This document shows, piece by piece, positions 56,111 to 63,030 of a DNA stretch of 64,000 nucleotides. A program made the position numbers and the translations under genes. The DNA is from Glaciimonas soli (GTDB lineage Bacteria > Pseudomonadota > Gammaproteobacteria > Burkholderiales > Burkholderiaceae_D): assembly GCF_009497155.1 (NCBI RefSeq), contig NZ_WINI01000001.1:744001-808000 (forward strand), given 5' to 3'. How positions within the stretch are numbered: position 1 is the stretch's first letter; the number at the start of each line of letters is the position of its first letter. The notes under the pieces were generated by a model. That model was not told where the DNA came from, searched no databases, and was given only the letters and a program-made list of their open reading frames with translations.

Positions 56111-56581
56111 TCACCAACAACCGCCCGAAGGTGGTGTAACTGCGGCGCCTGCTGACGTCACATTGGATTGGACGCCGAGGTTGTTAACAACGTAGGCATA
56201 GCATACGTCGGCCGTTTGACCTCCAGTTGGAGTAGCGGTAACGGTGTAATTTGTTGGGGCAGTCTGCGTAATAGTAAAAGTGTAATAACTTGGCCCGCTT
56301 GAACTGATAACTACCGCAGCGTCTGTTGCGTAATTCAATTTAGTAGCCAAGGTTGTATAGGTGTTATTCGTAGCGAAGAATTTTTCTTCCCGCCCCGCCA
56401 CTTCCAACACCGCATTCTTAGCGTCAACGCGGTGGCTTTTCAGAATGTATTGCTTATAGGACGGCAAAGCGATTGCCGCTAATATCCCGACGATGGCGAC
56501 CACCATCATAATTTCTATGAGGGTGAAGCCTCGTGCCTTGGTTAACGCACGCTGAAAAGGTTGAATTGACGGATGTCGCAT
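56111..56581 (-). CDS. pilE: Type IV pilin-like protein (PilE minor pilin)
   Basis: A 156-residue type IV pilin. After a 17-residue basic leader comes the prepilin peptidase site G/FTLIE ([17 protein letters not shown]), with Glu at mature position 5 and a hydrophobic helix. The C terminus has a likely disulfide pair (DVCYAYVV and GGCW). Last gene of the fimT-pilV-pilW-pilX-pilY1-pilE unit, in the place of PilE of Pseudomonas, which primes pilus assembly. It could instead be close to a major pilin, but position argues for the minor one. Confidence 0.9.
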
Positions 56582-56600: not shown

Positions 56601-59600
56601 TTAACGCAGTTTTTGCCATGTGATCCGTTTTGCAACGAACGGTTGCGGATCAACTGGTATCGGTGTGTTGTTGGAGACGTTGGAGTCAGTACCACCGCCA
56701 GCGGAGCCGCTGCTGCCAGTGCCGCCTGTGCTACCACCACCGCTGCTTGGGCCACTAGAGCCGCTAGCGCTGCTACCGCTACTGTTGACTTGTTGTACTA
56801 GATATACCTTGCCTGTCGTAGTAGTAACAAGCGACGGTGAACCAGTGCCGCTCAGCCCGAGTCCAGAAACGATATTTGCTCCAGCTACAGTTCCAGTAGG
56901 GTTGTAACCCGAATTAGCAGATTGAGTTGCAAAGAACGAGGTTGGAAGCGCACCGCCAGTTTCTGGTGAAAGCGCCATCGTGTAACCGCTAGCCGGTTGC
57001 GCAGTGCAACTCAGTACCTGATTCACTCCTGGAATCGTGGTATTCACTAAAAAGACGCCATAGGCCGCGACCGGGTTATAAATGATTTGTTCACTGTTTG
57101 TCACTGAACCAGTTGTAGTCGACGGCAACGACAACTGCCAGCCATATTGTGTATTGCTACTTGCTGCTGAACCACACACCGTCGATCCGCTCCAGCAAAC
57201 TGGATTTTGAGATACCGTGCGATAACCGGATATATTGCCGCTCGCACTATTAACGGTTTGCAATATCGTCTGCGTTGCCAAGCTAGAGACGCCAATTGTC
57301 GTCGGCCCACTAACTATTGCGTCATATTGACTGCTACTTTTAGCATTCCAGGCAGTCATATTCCAATCCCAGATTCCATAGAGCGTCTGCGTACCACTGA
57401 CAAATGTCGTTGCACTCGTGAGGGTTTGTGGAAATTGTTGTCCGGTGCCAAAGGCAATGATCAACCTTGCAGGTCCGTTAGAACTAGCCGACTGGACCGC
57501 ATTGACTGTCAAGCGCGTCGTGATCGGCTGTCCAGCAGCGGTGGTAAATATTGGTTTGCTTGGCGCAACCCAATTTGCTGAATTGCTACCAGTCACATCG
57601 AAACGCCACACGTTGCCTTGGAAATCCCCTGCGTACAGATAATCGGTGACATGATCTCCATCCAAATCGGCTGAGGATACATAATCGATACCGTTCTTTG
57701 CAGTTGTGCTCTTATAGCCAGTATCAAGGAAGCGAATCGTAGTTGCGCCTGTGCTGTAATTGACGGTCATGATGTAAATACCAGCCGTGCCGGTACTGCT
57801 GTTGTGACCGTTCCCAAAAATGACCGCCCAATTACCATCGTGCATTTTTCGGATAATCGGTGTGCCGTAGACACTGCCGAGGCTGCTGTTACAAGTACTG
57901 GTCTTGGTGTCGGTAGTACAGATGATGGCGCTTGAATTCCATTCCCCCTTTACAACTGTGGCCGCGTTAGCTTCCGTAAAGTTAGCAGGGTTGGTGATAT
58001 CCAAGGCATAGAGATCACCGATGGCAGTACTGGTTGTGTTATTGATCGGGCCGGTCGCGTTACCACCCGCAGCTAAACCGCCAACCAGCCAAGTATGCCA
58101 GGCGCCGCCGTAGTACAGATCGCCGGTTGCGGGTGTCGCGTTGACGTAAAAGTTGTGAGCATATTGCGGTGATGAGAAATCGTATGATGTATTTGACGGA
58201 TGAATACTGCTGATCACTGCGGCGGGCACGTAAGCCAGCACTTCTTGTCCATCATTAGTCGCGGCATTGAAAACAGTACCGGTCGAATCATACGCACCGG
58301 CACGGAAACCATGCAGCATGCCGTCATTGGCGCCAACATAGACGATATTTTGACGTGTATTGTTATTGCTAACGAAGGTGTTGTAGCTCGCACCATATTC
58401 TGCTATGGATTTTTGGGTAAGGAGATCTACGCCGGTATAGGTATAGTTTGATGCTGGGATACCAACCCATGTCGGGCTCGAATTCATGATGTCGCCTAAA
58501 ACACCGTTGCGTCCACGGAACGCACCGCCATTGGCGATCTCCTGACTGCGATCACCACGCAAAAAGGATGTACGCTGTAATCCGTCAACGCTGCCGCCAA
58601 TCAAACTTTGCTGATTGGTTGACAAACTGGCGTATTCGAAAGGAATGCCAGTCGCCGCAGTATCATTCCAGCTAAGGATGCTGCGAGCAGTTGGTGCCTG
58701 TGCTGTATTGGTACCACCGGTCGCGCTACAAGCACCGCCAGTCAGTACGCAGTTGGCATCCCAATTTGCCGTGGAATTAATCGACACCACTCCAGCACTA
58801 TTGGCAACCAGATTCGATGCCGTCAGTGAGCCCCAGGAATTAACTGCATGGTAGTACGCAAAATAGACCTGTGAACCAACCTGCACCTGGGACGACTGTA
58901 CGTTGGTGCCTGCTGAAGTACCAGCCTGGTTAATTTGTGCCGCTTTAAAGCAAAGAATTTCGTGAACATTACTGCCCCCACCGGTACCGGCGGTAAAGCC
59001 AAATAAGAAATTGGCTGGCAACGGGCCATTCGTGGCGGTAATAGATTGTTTAGGGATAGCGGTAATCGGCGATCCGCCGTTCACGCTAAAAGTGAGGCTC
59101 AGATAGCCATCTTGCGTAATGTTTAGTGCATAAGTAAATACGTTTGCCTTACTACGCAACGGTGCGGCAACTCCCTCCTGATTGTATATGGTCGTCGCCG
59201 GTGTCGTCGCCGTCAGCGCCGCTACCGACGCCGGCGTCCCGATCAGGCTGTAATCGTAAACTGCTTCGGTGGTTGATTGTTTATTTGCGATCGATTTCTT
59301 ATTGGCATCAACAATCGTACTGCCACTCCAATTTTGCAGAAAACCAGTAGCACATGTTTTTTGTACAGCCGTGAGCAAATTGGCAGCGCTCAAACTTGAT
59401 GGATAGTATTTCGGATAAGTACTCTTTAATACCGCGCCGGTGATACTACCCGCACCGCGCATTGTAATCGCCCCTGGATTAGTGCCTGGGCCGGTCGCAG
59501 TATTGTCGCCTGGGTTCGAAAAATTACCGAATTCATCAATCCCCACTGCAACGTAGCCGCCATTCAAACCATCGGATGACGGGCTTTTTGAATTGGCGCA

Positions 59601-60140
59601 GCTGTAACCAAGGCTACCACCGAAGGCACCTGGGGGCGGGGGCGCGGTGCCAACCATTTTGCTACTATCCATCAAGAAAAACGCGATACCGTCTGCCCCC
59701 GAAGCCTGATTGTTGCTATTACTATAACCATTGCCACCATAAGACACCGTAGAAAACGTAACTTGAACCCCTTCGCTCGTTGGGAATGGGCTGCTTGAAA
59801 TAACCGCTCCCGTATTGTTATTACCATTCGATCCATTGATCTTGGTATCGCCGTTGCTCAGTCGCAGCGCACCCTGTCCAACAGGATCAGGCAACACGCC
59901 ACTAACCCCGCCGACCTGAGTCTTCCCGCTGTAATAAGCAAGGCCATTGCAAGCCGGAATCGTACCGGTATTATTTCCGGCAGTAAGACAAGCGCCACCC
60001 GTAGTAACCCATGGATAAGTGGATGAAGTCCCGTTGAGCGTATCACTGACAACTAACTGCGCATAAACGGGAAGCGGAGACAACACCGCGATCGCTAATG
60101 CCCAAATTGCACTTGTATATTTTTTATTGAGTTTTTTCAT
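56601..60140 (-). CDS. pilY1: PilY1-type pilus tip adhesin with N-terminal L-type-lectin-like domain
   Basis: A 1179-residue secreted protein. Signal peptide 1-27 (ends VYA). Residues about 28-265 look like a bacterial L-type lectin: DGIAFFLMD (150-158), GAFGGSLGYS (171-180) and GGYVAVGIDEFGNFSN (194-209, putative Ca/Mn ligands Asp202, Asn206). The usual von Willebrand A domain with its MIDAS motif is not seen. From about 560 the PilY1/PilC beta-propeller follows (NIVYVGANDGMLHGFRAG; EF-hand-like DLDGDHVTD at 825-833, next to YLYAGDFQGNVWRFD). A Gly/Ser-rich tract precedes the C-terminal ITWQKLR. It would sit at the pilus tip, regulate retraction and bind glycans. Confidence 0.88.
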   Translation of the reverse strand: MKKLNKKYTSAIWALAIAVLSPLPVYAQLVVSDTLNGTSSTYPWVTTGGACLTAGNNTGTIPACNGLAYYSGKTQVGGVSGVLPDPVGQGALRLSNGDTKINGSNGNNNTGAVISSSPFPTSEGVQVTFSTVSYGGNGYSNSNNQASGADGIAFFLMDSSKMVGTAPPPPGAFGGSLGYSCANSKSPSSDGLNGGYVAVGIDEFGNFSNPGDNTATGPGTNPGAITMRGAGSITGAVLKSTYPKYYPSSLSAANLLTAVQKTCATGFLQNWSGSTIVDANKKSIANKQSTTEAVYDYSLIGTPASVAALTATTPATTIYNQEGVAAPLRSKANVFTYALNITQDGYLSLTFSVNGGSPITAIPKQSITATNGPLPANFLFGFTAGTGGGSNVHEILCFKAAQINQAGTSAGTNVQSSQVQVGSQVYFAYYHAVNSWGSLTASNLVANSAGVVSINSTANWDANCVLTGGACSATGGTNTAQAPTARSILSWNDTAATGIPFEYASLSTNQQSLIGGSVDGLQRTSFLRGDRSQEIANGGAFRGRNGVLGDIMNSSPTWVGIPASNYTYTGVDLLTQKSIAEYGASYNTFVSNNNTRQNIVYVGANDGMLHGFRAGAYDSTGTVFNAATNDGQEVLAYVPAAVISSIHPSNTSYDFSSPQYAHNFYVNATPATGDLYYGGAWHTWLVGGLAAGGNATGPINNTTSTAIGDLYALDITNPANFTEANAATVVKGEWNSSAIICTTDTKTSTCNSSLGSVYGTPIIRKMHDGNWAVIFGNGHNSSTGTAGIYIMTVNYSTGATTIRFLDTGYKSTTAKNGIDYVSSADLDGDHVTDYLYAGDFQGNVWRFDVTGSNSANWVAPSKPIFTTAAGQPITTRLTVNAVQSASSNGPARLIIAFGTGQQFPQTLTSATTFVSGTQTLYGIWDWNMTAWNAKSSSQYDAIVSGPTTIGVSSLATQTILQTVNSASGNISGYRTVSQNPVCWSGSTVCGSAASSNTQYGWQLSLPSTTTGSVTNSEQIIYNPVAAYGVFLVNTTIPGVNQVLSCTAQPASGYTMALSPETGGALPTSFFATQSANSGYNPTGTVAGANIVSGLGLSGTGSPSLVTTTTGKVYLVQQVNSSGSSASGSSGPSSGGGSTGGTGSSGSAGGGTDSNVSNNTPIPVDPQPFVAKRITWQKLR

Positions 60141-60157: not shown

Positions 60158-60805
60158 TCAATCCGAACCAAGATTTTTGGTTCGTGGGCCGACGGTCACA
60201 ATACTTTGCACCACCGAAGTACTATTGGTACTACCCCCGACACCAGCCCCAGTCACTGAATAATATGCACTCTGACCGTCTGATGTTTTCCCAAGATAAG
60301 CAATATAAAGCTGTGGTGCGCTGGAATAATTAATATCAAGATTTCCATTGCCGTCAGTTACGGTACCACCACCGGCAAGAACTTTCATCGCTGGAGGCGT
60401 ATAGAGTAAGGACGCAGCCCAATTTTGAGGAGTAGTCGGATTAACTAGTGCGTTGGTACATACAAGCATTTGACCGGGAGCAGTGACTGTGATCGTGTTG
60501 CTACACGCTACGCCCGTTTTAAGTATCACCCCGCTTTGCCCCAACCACCATTCACCATACTGTAGTGCGTTCTGTGCGGCTTCAAATGACCGTTCTTTCT
60601 CTCTGCTATTACCGGCTATTTTTTGCTGTATACCGTAACCGCGAAACATACTCAGGGCGAGTAAAGTCAGCATCACCAACAGCAGCATCGCCGTAATTAA
60701 CACGAAGCCCTGTTGTCTTGCGTAACCTGATCGGCCCGACGTTCTCAACGAAATCAAGCCTTTGACCTTGCTACGATAATTACTAGAATAGTGATGACGA
60801 CTCAT
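60158..60805 (-). CDS. pilX: Minor pilin-associated protein PilX
   Basis: A 215-residue PilX-type protein. After a basic leader the pilin-like helix is QQGFVLITAMLLLVMLTLLALSMFRG, where the position of Glu5 is occupied by Thr, as in many PilX proteins. The next conserved part is REKERSFEAAQNALQYGEWWL. Four-base overlap with pilW upstream; 17 bases to pilY1. Helps to build the initiation complex of pilus assembly at the inner membrane. Confidence 0.9.
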   Translation of the reverse strand: MSRHHYSSNYRSKVKGLISLRTSGRSGYARQQGFVLITAMLLLVMLTLLALSMFRGYGIQQKIAGNSREKERSFEAAQNALQYGEWWLGQSGVILKTGVACSNTITVTAPGQMLVCTNALVNPTTPQNWAASLLYTPPAMKVLAGGGTVTDGNGNLDINYSSAPQLYIAYLGKTSDGQSAYYSVTGAGVGGSTNSTSVVQSIVTVGPRTKNLGSD

Positions 60806-61581
60806 GTGTTGCTCATCAAACTGATAGTGTGAACCAGCGGGGGAAGAGTTGGCGCTTTGGTTGGCGTCGCATTGACCAAGTCAAGGAAAGTAATCGTGAT
60901 TTGCGTAGACATCACTTGAGCCCAATTAGCAACGGCACTTGCCGGTAGATAGGTGTCAACACTGTTTACCTTGTTTATTGTATTGACGCCATACAAGACG
61001 CTAATCGAAGCAACATTGTCGACCAGTACGCTAGGTGTACCGGGCGTTCCGCCATTTACACTGACGACACAGGTGAGCTGATTGGCAGCATTGATGGCAA
61101 AGCTGTTGGTCCAGATAACTGAGGATCCCGATGTATTGGTATCGCCCTGACAGTCCATTAAACCGTCACCGCTAGCGCTTTGAAATCGCACATTGATAGT
61201 ATCACTGGCTGGGCTAGTTCCCGTGGTTCCGACAATGCCCTGCGCCGCCGCAAACGTGGTGCCATCTGGATTGGCCGTCGACGTCGCAGGTAGAGCCGCG
61301 GCTGACAGAATGCTAGTTGGATTCGGAAAATATCCTGCGGTCCGGATCGTATTGTCCAACACTGTCAGAGAAAAACGTTGACTATCCTGGACATTAGAAA
61401 GCTGACCTTGCGTGTTAAAACTGCCTTTCATGCTAATGACGATGGCGATCATTCCGGCAATCATGAATAAGCCGATAGTGATCGCGATCATCAACTCTAT
61501 CAGGGTAAAACCGGATGTTTTAGGATTTTTTTTACGCATAGGGATATTGCGGGTTGGGCGCGAATGCGAAGGCTTCATCAT
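60802..61581 (-). CDS. pilW: Minor pilin PilW
   Basis: A 259-residue PilW protein with prepilin motif SGFTLIELMIAITIGLFMIAGM (residues about 23-44) and the conserved QLSNVQDSQRFSLTVLDNTIRTAGYF after it. Part of the minor pilin set. Overlaps pilV and pilX by four bases each. Confidence 0.92.
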   Translation of the reverse strand: MMKPSHSRPTRNIPMRKKNPKTSGFTLIELMIAITIGLFMIAGMIAIVISMKGSFNTQGQLSNVQDSQRFSLTVLDNTIRTAGYFPNPTSILSAAALPATSTANPDGTTFAAAQGIVGTTGTSPASDTINVRFQSASGDGLMDCQGDTNTSGSSVIWTNSFAINAANQLTCVVSVNGGTPGTPSVLVDNVASISVLYGVNTINKVNSVDTYLPASAVANWAQVMSTQITITFLDLVNATPTKAPTLPPLVHTISLMSNT

Positions 61582-62156
61582 GGCTGTACAAAGACACTAA
61601 ACGACTGCGTTGCTGTTGCGCTTCCACCGGGTGCTGTCGCGGCTGTCGTTTGGTTCATGGCGACCTGATTCTCGACCCAAGTAACATATATTTGGCAACT
61701 GACTGGTTGCGCGGCGTTGCCGGTACAGTTGACGTTAGCGGTATAAGTCGGAAACTGCTGATTCATGCCGGCTACCCACGTCTGTACATCATAGGCAGCC
61801 AATGCTGCGGGAGTACATTGCGTAGCACATCCACTCGATGCCGCGTTAAGAACACCGGTCGGGTCTGTCACAGTGGTTCCCGCAGCTGAAAAAGTGCTTG
61901 CATTTACAACTGCCGTAGAAGGGGCCCAATATGCCGTATTAACATGCATGGAGGAAACCAGACTGGCCACTTGCAAGGCAATCAGCGAACGGCTTCCTGC
62001 ATTGCTAGTACTGGAAACAGCCAAAGCCTGCATCTTTGCAAGCCCAAGCAATGCTACAGCGCTAACGACTATCGTAATCAACACTTCAAGCAAAGTGAAG
62101 CCGCGTACTGATTTATGCGCTTTATGAGCTTTATGATTCGAGGATGAATAATACAT
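61578..62156 (-). CDS. pilV: Minor pilin PilV
   Basis: A 192-residue PilV protein: Lys/His-rich leader (NHKAHKAHKS), then RGFTLLEVLITIVVSAVALLGLAKMQ. The start at 62156 gives a normal-size leader and leaves 11 bases to fimT; a start at 62234 would overlap fimT by 67 bases. The ribosome site is weak. Overlaps pilW by four bases. Confidence 0.88.
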   Translation of the reverse strand: MYYSSSNHKAHKAHKSVRGFTLLEVLITIVVSAVALLGLAKMQALAVSSTSNAGSRSLIALQVASLVSSMHVNTAYWAPSTAVVNASTFSAAGTTVTDPTGVLNAASSGCATQCTPAALAAYDVQTWVAGMNQQFPTYTANVNCTGNAAQPVSCQIYVTWVENQVAMNQTTAATAPGGSATATQSFSVFVQP

Positions 62157-62167
62157 AGACGAAAATC

Positions 62168-62719
62168 TCACGTGCACGCTCCCGTACCTGATGACTGCAC
62201 CTGCTGTCGACCTGTTTTTATAAGCGCCAGACATTGTGTAGCGGCGGTGTTTGTTGTGGCTGTATGAAGCGTGAATGTGACGGTACCTGTTCCGGGTAAA
62301 CCAGTCGTAAAACCATCCCGGCTATACGTCACAGACGACGCAGCACTATCAGCTACAAAAGTATCGGTACCTACAAAACTTTTTTGTATGCGAAGAAAAG
62401 TCACACCCGCAGCCGGTGTTGCAGACGCAGTTGGATCGGGGAAAATTATCCATCCAGTATTCCATGTGGTAGTCCCAAGACAAGTTGCACCATCTGCTGA
62501 TGCGCAAATGGTCACCGGCAAACCTTGCTCAATCGCCGATGCACGGGCAAATTGCAAATCCTTTGCAAACCCATTAATTTCTGCCTGCACACGAAATTGC
62601 TGTGTCATCGAAGTATACGAGGGAACAGCTATCACCATCAGAATTGCAGCAATGGCAATGACAACCATCAGCTCTATCAGAGTGACGCCGCGCTGGGATC
62701 GAGGAATAATATTGTTCAT
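62168..62719 (-). CDS. fimT: Pseudopilin FimT/GspH
   Basis: A 183-residue pseudopilin with short leader and motif QRGVTLIELMVVIAIAAILMVIAVPSY, then FAKDLQFARASAIEQGLPVTICAS and the GspH-type end. FimT-like proteins lead the minor pilin operon and, in some species, bind DNA for natural transformation. The ATG at 62719 is used; upstream TTG is unlikely. Confidence 0.9.
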   Translation of the reverse strand: MNNIIPRSQRGVTLIELMVVIAIAAILMVIAVPSYTSMTQQFRVQAEINGFAKDLQFARASAIEQGLPVTICASADGATCLGTTTWNTGWIIFPDPTASATPAAGVTFLRIQKSFVGTDTFVADSAASSVTYSRDGFTTGLPGTGTVTFTLHTATTNTAATQCLALIKTGRQQVQSSGTGACT

Positions 62720-63030
62720 GGGCAACTATATTACCAGAAAGAAATCATGATACAACACTAATGTTGCCGAAAAGTGACTTTGTTACATAAATCTGTGCCA
62801 GCTATAACAAATTTGAGATTGTTTCTGTCGTGCTTGATTAACAAGCCGTTTTTACATGCTTAGTCGAGTGGTGGGAGGAGGTTGGGATCGAGTAGCAACA
62901 GAAACCATGATGAAAGTTCATTTACTAATGAACATCATCACCGCCCTTTTCGCTCGGGCACTGAAGCTAGCTTGCTAATTCATTTACACAAATACGTAAG
63001 ATTTGCGAGGCGATGAAAGCTGCACGCATA
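62720..63030. other. Intergenic region upstream of fimT
   Basis: About 310 bases without a gene, holding the promoter of the minor pilin operon. Two weak dyads are seen: TTTGTTA and TAACAAA (62779-62785, 62805-62811), and a hairpin GTTCAT-ttacta-ATGAAC with flanking GATG/CATC (62909-62938). No function is claimed for them. Confidence 0.4.

Follow-up and report, generated by a model that had tools for sequence, protein, structure and literature searches.

A PilY1 protein of Glaciimonas soli with a predicted L-type lectin domain in place of the von Willebrand A domain

PilY1 acts at the tip of type IVa pili (T4aP), both as adhesin and as surface sensor. The proteins of P. aeruginosa, L. pneumophila and M. 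xanthus (PilY1.3) combine one large N-terminal module, a von Willebrand A (vWA) domain, with a C-terminal propeller that carries a calcium loop, and are encoded in minor-pilin operons. Here we describe a PilY1 gene in a stretch of 64,000 nucleotides from Glaciimonas soli (contig NZ_WINI01000001.1, positions 744,001 to 808,000; hereafter the window), which shares these features but differs in that its N-terminal module is a predicted lectin jelly roll, no MIDAS (metal-ion-dependent adhesion site) motif is seen in that module, and its propeller groups with those of similar proteins in a clade of their own. The M. xanthus proteins PilY1.1 and PilY1.2 are a second point of comparison, as their N-terminal module is DUF4114, for which polysaccharide and calcium binding has been suggested, with a proposed role connected with exopolysaccharide (parts of PMC9109919 and PMC13190605); the module here is of another domain family. 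According to a survey of May 2026 (PMC13190605), vWFA and DUF4114 are the only N-terminal domains so far recognised in the published PilY1s compared there. An earlier survey (PMC8179133, 2021, in part) presents PilY1 N-termini as swappable effector modules and gives 68 InterPro architectures for PilC/PilY1 in its Dataset S2. The lectin-PilY1 is thus a variant within the already known modularity of PilY1 (vWA, DUF4114); we found no description of it in the literature searched, and the architecture may already be listed among those 68.

Lectins on type IV pili have a precedent in the S. sanguinis minor pilin PilC, a modular pilin that displays a concanavalin A (ConA)-like lectin in the minor-pilin complex and binds sialylated glycans and heparin oligosaccharides (PMC9934059, in the sections considered). 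There the carrier is a pilin rather than a PilY1, the lectin was superposed by its authors on human galectin-7, and the host is monoderm. An earlier note on this DNA, made from its letters, had suggested a different adhesion chemistry from classical PilY1, which is fair with respect to vWA-type proteins but is anticipated by the Myxococcus DUF4114 proteins and by PilC. L-type lectins of legumes (peanut lectin, 2pel) and archaea (M. jannaschii, 7elv) have the fold predicted for the domain described here and the core of its predicted sugar and calcium site; they differ in having no pilus-tip protein attached and in possessing a transition-metal Glu, at whose position the aligned lectin-PilY1s have Gly or Ala.

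The open reading frame (ORF) at 56601-60140 on the minus strand has the extent given in the earlier note and encodes 1179 amino acids (aa) with no internal stop. PF05567 matches residues 548-928 (E 3.3e-35; score 122.2 bits, cut-off 28.1), and residues 520-1135 match the structure of the P. aeruginosa PilY1 C-terminal domain, 3hx6, at E 4.6e-53 (phmmer), with the calcium loop aligned; the C-terminal half is therefore that of an ordinary PilY1, as the note had supposed. In the full-length AlphaFold model (predicted local distance difference test, pLDDT, 78.7; predicted TM-score, pTM, 0.74) 3hx6 is again the top Foldseek match (E 6.1e-27), with archaeal and legume lectins next. Loop residues D825, D827, D829 and D833 are among the columns at least 90% conserved in alignment A4. 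Residues 1-28 are of low confidence in this model. A Gly/Ser-rich tail of low confidence covers residues 1121-1156 (window 56673-56780).

The N-terminal domain gives a faint signal when the window protein is searched alone (VIP36 E 0.72, PF18483 E 0.012, PF03388 E 0.02). We modelled residues 28-520 with AlphaFold on alignment A3, which holds the window protein and 31 of the 38 lectin-PilY1 loci described below (near-copies L043, L052, L054 and L073, the truncated L048, and L076 and L077 with very long inserts were omitted). The model (pLDDT 76.5, pTM 0.73) predicts with confidence a concanavalin-like jelly roll. This is the fold anticipated by the earlier note, which had proposed structure prediction and a Foldseek search: peanut lectin is the first Foldseek match (E 2.7e-8) and an archaeal legume-lectin domain the second, and the best VIA-align match is a Griffonia lectin (Z 21.6, 2.8 A over 221 residues). 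Among the 50 VIA-align matches listed, Z ranges from 20.4 to 21.6 and each spans model residues 1 to about 378 (protein 28 to about 405); because the structural alignments cover this whole stretch, we place the lectin domain at residues 28-404. The narrower extent of 28-265 in the earlier note is too short, and the last strands, FGFTAGTGGGSNVHEI (380-395), hold part of the lectin signature.

Profile searches agree with the model. The A3 profile has peanut lectin as its top match among structures (E 5.2e-6), with both lectin halves aligned. A narrower profile, A2, gave a single weak match in the PDB (7elv, E 0.0089) and a single Novosphingobium lectin used as query gave nothing below E 0.05, so the wider profile was needed. 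With a threshold of E 0.1, PF18483 matches 23 of the 32 A3 members (best E 1.7e-10), PF03388 matches 13 and PF00139 two; the PF18483-type relationship proposed in the earlier note is thus found at this threshold, and its failing at the curated cut-off is considered below. DUF4114 (PF13448) was found neither in the window protein (Pfam, E up to 1) nor in the 32 A3 members (E up to 0.1), DUF6701 (PF20419) has no Pfam match in the window protein, and six members of A2 have no match at E 0.01 to PHROG phage families. The linker between lectin and propeller is partly common to PilY1s without a lectin, as seen in low-scoring profile matches at profile positions of about 350-430; in genome G031 such a match falls in the same ORF as the PilY1 match.

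The motifs quoted in the earlier note are all present, GADGIAFFLMD at residues 148-158, GGSLGY at 174-179, GGYVAVGIDEFGNFSN at 194-209 and DLDGDHVTD at 825-833, and the first three include or adjoin the predicted sugar and calcium site (Table 1). We take peanut lectin residues 83, 104 and 127 to be the core of its sugar site, with residues of the same loop holding calcium; N206 reaches residue 127 by ungapped extension of the HMMER alignment. D150, G175, D202, N206 and D212 are identical in all 32 rows of A3, at a mean column identity of 34%. Invariant columns number 37 of the 377 in the lectin, and all five site positions are among them (hypergeometric P about 7e-6, a rough value as the positions were picked with the alignment in view). 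Spacing between conserved anchors varies, from 22 to 156 residues between positions 206 and 228 and from 73 to 151 between 228 and 375, which would fit varied ligands. In L060, L066 and L069, Ser/Thr-rich inserts of more than 100 residues interrupt the metal loop after N206 and before D212, and the two site residues are retained.

The gene stands fifth of six on one strand, in the order FimT/GspH-type pilin, PilV, PilW, PilX, PilY1 and a PilE/ComP-like pilin. Of the 36 lectin-pilY1 loci that have 1 kb or more of upstream sequence, 34 show a recognisable minor pilin there on the same strand, the exceptions being L050 and L070. PilB, PilQ and PilT matches in the G. soli genome exceed their NCBIfam cut-offs, and a working pilus is therefore plausible. 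The pilin at the operon end (56111-56581) matches the ComP DNA-uptake receptor family (PF16732).

Table 1. Positions of the lectin-pilY1 gene, its parts and its operon in the window
Feature	Position	Strand	Evidence
FimT/GspH-type minor pilin	62168..62725	-	PF12019 E 9.5e-17
PilV minor pilin	61578..62234	-	TIGR02523 E 2.5e-13, 50.7 bits, slightly below cut-off 52.2
PilW minor pilin	60802..61581	-	PF16074 E 3e-8, N_methyl
PilX minor pilin	60158..60805	-	PF14341 E 1.9e-9, PF13681 E 6.6e-9
pilY1 ORF	56601-60140	-	Translation: 1179 aa and stop codon, no internal stops
Start codon and Sec-type signal peptide, residues 1-27	60060..60140	-	Sequence; signal peptide called by eye
L-type (legume-type) lectin domain, residues 28-404	58929..60059	-	AlphaFold model, fold search, PF18483, peanut lectin profile match
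D150 of GADG, predicted sugar/calcium site	59691..59693	-	Aligned with peanut lectin Asp83 (HMMER alignment and residue count); D in 32/32
G174-G175 of GGSLGY	59616..59621	-	G175 aligned with peanut lectin residue 104 (HMMER alignment); G in 32/32
Predicted metal/sugar loop D202-E-F-G-N206-F-S-N-P-G-D212	59505..59537	-	D202, N206, D212 each 32/32
C-terminal lectin signature FGFTAGTGGGSNVHEI, residues 380-395	58956..59003	-	F380, F382, N391, H393, E394 identical in 32/32
Linker from lectin to propeller, residues 405-519	58584..58928	-	
PilY1 beta-propeller and C-terminal part, residues 520-1135	56736..58583	-	PF05567, PDB 3hx6, Foldseek
Propeller calcium loop DLDGDHVTD, residues 825-833	57642..57668	-	Aligned with corresponding loop of 3hx6
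PilE/ComP-like pilin, operon end	56111..56581	-	PF16732 ComP_DUS E 5.3e-22, N_methyl

Lectin-PilY1s are recurrent and, among the loci kept from a genome scan, mainly betaproteobacterial. The scan of one genome per species gave 572 pattern matches, 527 of which encode a relative, and the best 80 were kept; by hidden Markov models, 38 of these 80 loci have a single ORF that encodes both the lectin and the PilY1 propeller. In L056 the gene is split and the two domains fall in different frames, and L055 is cut off by the end of its contig. Thirty-one of the one-ORF loci are labelled betaproteobacteria, including Cupriavidus (among them C. necator strain SHC 2-3, L044), Variovorax, Polaromonas, Curvibacter, Caldimonas, Aquitalea, a Neisseriaceae strain, Oxalobacteraceae and other Burkholderiales metagenome-assembled genomes; the other seven are metagenome-assembled genomes labelled Gammaproteobacteria or proteobacterium. 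A sample of 294 genomes from the family of G. soli has 13 that match A3 strongly, each with a best E of at most 1.6e-62, and the remaining 33 of the 46 matched genomes lie at E 8.5e-25 or weaker; the profile positions hit in these 33 suggest lectins that are free or of MshQ type, or else the PilY1 linker, and four of them were examined (L022-L025). A class-wide sample has any A2 match in 12 of 369 genomes, at least four of which (G. soli, G373, G066 and G416) encode a lectin-PilY1, and in an order-wide sample PilY1 is present in 84 of 120 genomes, with a lectin on two (L170, L176) of the best-scoring 29 new PilY1 loci. In four of the 13 lectin genomes searched, no PilY1 other than the lectin form was detected; these are G431, G458, G373 and G066, which are 95%, 86%, 99% and 100% complete, respectively. 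Two further ORFs, in L061 (295-3429) and L065 (660-3437), have a lectin of the same kind followed by a C-terminal part that goes unrecognised by Pfam; by eye this part is like a very diverged PilY1 propeller (NNDGFLYSV).

The propellers of these proteins group together. In a tree of 80 linker-propeller sequences, the 45 lectin-bearing rows and L056_2, which is the propeller half of the lectin-PilY1 gene split in its contig, form one clade of 46 rows with a Shimodaira-Hasegawa-like approximate likelihood ratio test (SH-aLRT) support of 100; the tree is a quick build with SH-aLRT support only and has some long non-lectin branches. All propeller pieces shorter than 350 aa and 11 further rows (copies, short or secondary pieces) were omitted, including L035, its copy L128, L042 and L138. 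The nearest named rows to the window protein are Oxalobacteraceae. Lectin and propeller identities covary (Spearman 0.71, computed on 465 of the 496 pairs among 32 proteins, with none of 999 permutations as high). Independent fusions of lectin and propeller were considered and are unsupported, as the tree needs two label changes, one of which is due to the split-gene row L056_2.

The five genomes of the genus set (G000, the G. soli genome, to G004) differ in their PilY1 complement. All five have a short form; G. soli and G002 add to it a lectin-PilY1, their short forms having open frames of 661 and 643 aa and no N-terminal adhesin, and G001, G003 and G004 each add two other long PilY1s, one per genome with a DNSxS MIDAS motif, and have no lectin match. 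In G002 the lectin operon (L021) lies between an ATP-binding cassette (ABC) transporter ATPase gene and a large PepSY-like gene, and in G003 and G004 (L031, L032) a non-lectin PilY1 operon lies between those same neighbours in the opposite orientation (both by eye). It looks as though an entire operon had been exchanged at a single site, which agrees with how far apart the propellers concerned stand in the tree. DUF6701 (PF20419, the MshQ family) is present in G001, G003 and G004 only and has no match in G. soli or G002, making it the exact complement of the lectin-PilY1, which may mean nothing with five genomes and shared descent. The genus-mate PilY1s at L031 5825-9328 and L032 5140-8673 have a vWA-like start with NSES instead of DxSxS. 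The short PilY1 of G. soli itself (L027 7129-9081, 650 aa, without N-terminal adhesin domain) has pilin-like genes around it (by eye).

Related lectins are also present in MshQ-type proteins, which are likewise large non-pilin proteins but end in DUF6701 instead of the PilY1 propeller. All four family members tested (L022-L025) have such a lectin in a DUF6701 protein, that of L025 partly masked, and its GGSLGY and DE(F/Y)GNF motifs are the same or nearly the same as in lectin-PilY1s. A lectin module seems common to two pilus systems, T4aP and MSHA (mannose-sensitive haemagglutinin). The DUF6701 and lectin gene of L025 (4805-7564) follows a row of MSHA-like pilin genes (by eye). Related domains are found, too, in large ORFs of Bacteroidota and cyanobacteria and in a DUF11 protein of G. 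soli, a 926-aa product (L026 4724-7504) that begins with an L-type lectin, also has DUF11 repeats and is encoded beside an ORF of 1828 aa.

Taken with what is known of PilY1, we think it likely that this protein is a PilY1 in which an L-type lectin replaces the vWA domain, is displayed at the pilus tip and binds glycan through a calcium-organised site; the bacterium would then probably grip surfaces by sugar recognition. The propeller with its calcium loop would cap the FimT-PilV-PilW-PilX-PilE minor-pilin complex and help to start pilus assembly, which would bring the lectin to the outermost point of a retractable T4aP; this position is suggested by PilY1 biology, and modelling in M. xanthus is reported to put the PilY1 N-terminal domain at the very tip of the minor-pilin complex (PMC13190605, in part). 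The lectin may bind a polysaccharide or a glycoconjugate or glycoprotein through D150, G175 and N206, while calcium would be held by D202 and D212. Pilus retraction would then draw the cell toward the bound glycan.

Several observations weigh against this interpretation. The curated cut-off of PF18483 is 78.3 bits, and the window protein scores 15.9, with the best of the 32 A3 members also below; other bacterial lectins of similar kind fall under it as well (e.g. L079 at 49 bits). Legume lectins have a transition-metal site with Glu and His, and the position of that Glu lines up with G200 (G in 30 of 32 rows, A in two); the site is therefore not the complete plant one and, as far as the alignment indicates, is likely a calcium-only site. 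Some relatives have insertions of up to about 130 extra aa between N206 and R228, and one of three aligned MshQ lectins has N and T at the positions of D150 and N206, so the fold can persist without the site. Finally, genus-mates have a PilY1 operon without a lectin flanked by the same genes (by eye), so this locus can do without the lectin.

A variant of the glycan-binding interpretation is that the ligand is exopolysaccharide of the cell itself or of sister cells, serving biofilm or matrix contact, rather than an external host or prey surface. We regard this as a genuine possibility that falls somewhat short of an even chance. The genera of the named lectin relatives are soil and water bacteria of varied habitat, which would suit it, and the DUF4114 protein PilY1.1 offers a precedent (PMC9109919, in part). 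It appears unlikely, by comparison, that the lectin fold has lost sugar binding and is retained as a structural cap, or as a module that binds protein and serves pilus priming or stability: such a role is in keeping with the MshQ relative lacking two site residues and with Myxococcus, in which deletion of the N-domain of PilY1.1 or PilY1.3 phenocopied the nulls and combined deletions gave no pili (PMC9109919, in the parts considered), indicating that a PilY1 N-domain can have an assembly role, but a pure scaffold would not need the five site residues, which are invariant in an otherwise divergent domain.

A degenerate vWA domain hidden in the N-terminal half, with only a superficial likeness to lectins, is highly improbable and is contradicted by the model, for although Pfam can overlook such domains, the 377 residues ahead of the linker are taken up by one predicted lectin fold and a vWA domain is larger than the 115-residue linker that remains. 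The absence of DxSxS before residue 478 of the window protein, and of any detected intact vWA domain, agrees with the earlier note. Silence of Pfam is not evidence in itself, because the genus-mate PilY1s L028, L029 and L030 carry a DNSxS MIDAS motif and yet have no Pfam vWA match at E 0.01; vWA is excluded here because another fold fills the space. A motif search of the other long PilY1s in lectin-bearing genomes found no MIDAS, a negative that carries no weight: those loci start about 1500 bases ahead of the propeller, and the MIDAS of L014-L016, seen in the longer L028-L030, was missed as well.

Returning to the glycan-binding tip, we tentatively suggest, while leaning slightly the other way, that lectin-PilY1s are a further natural class of T4aP tip beyond vWA and DUF4114, forming one coherent lineage, betaproteobacterial for the most part, in which the vWA mechanosensor is fully replaced by a calcium-organised glycan-binding jelly roll; where it is the only PilY1, the lectin form would have to serve assembly priming, attachment and surface sensing, and the related MshQ lectins would point to a module shared by the T4aP and MSHA systems. 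A clade with a recognisable lectin and an intact predicted sugar site makes the question of the ligand directly testable, and as natural tips without vWA these proteins allow one to ask which PilY1 functions truly need that domain. Workable hosts exist, since C. necator strain SHC 2-3 carries a lectin-PilY1.

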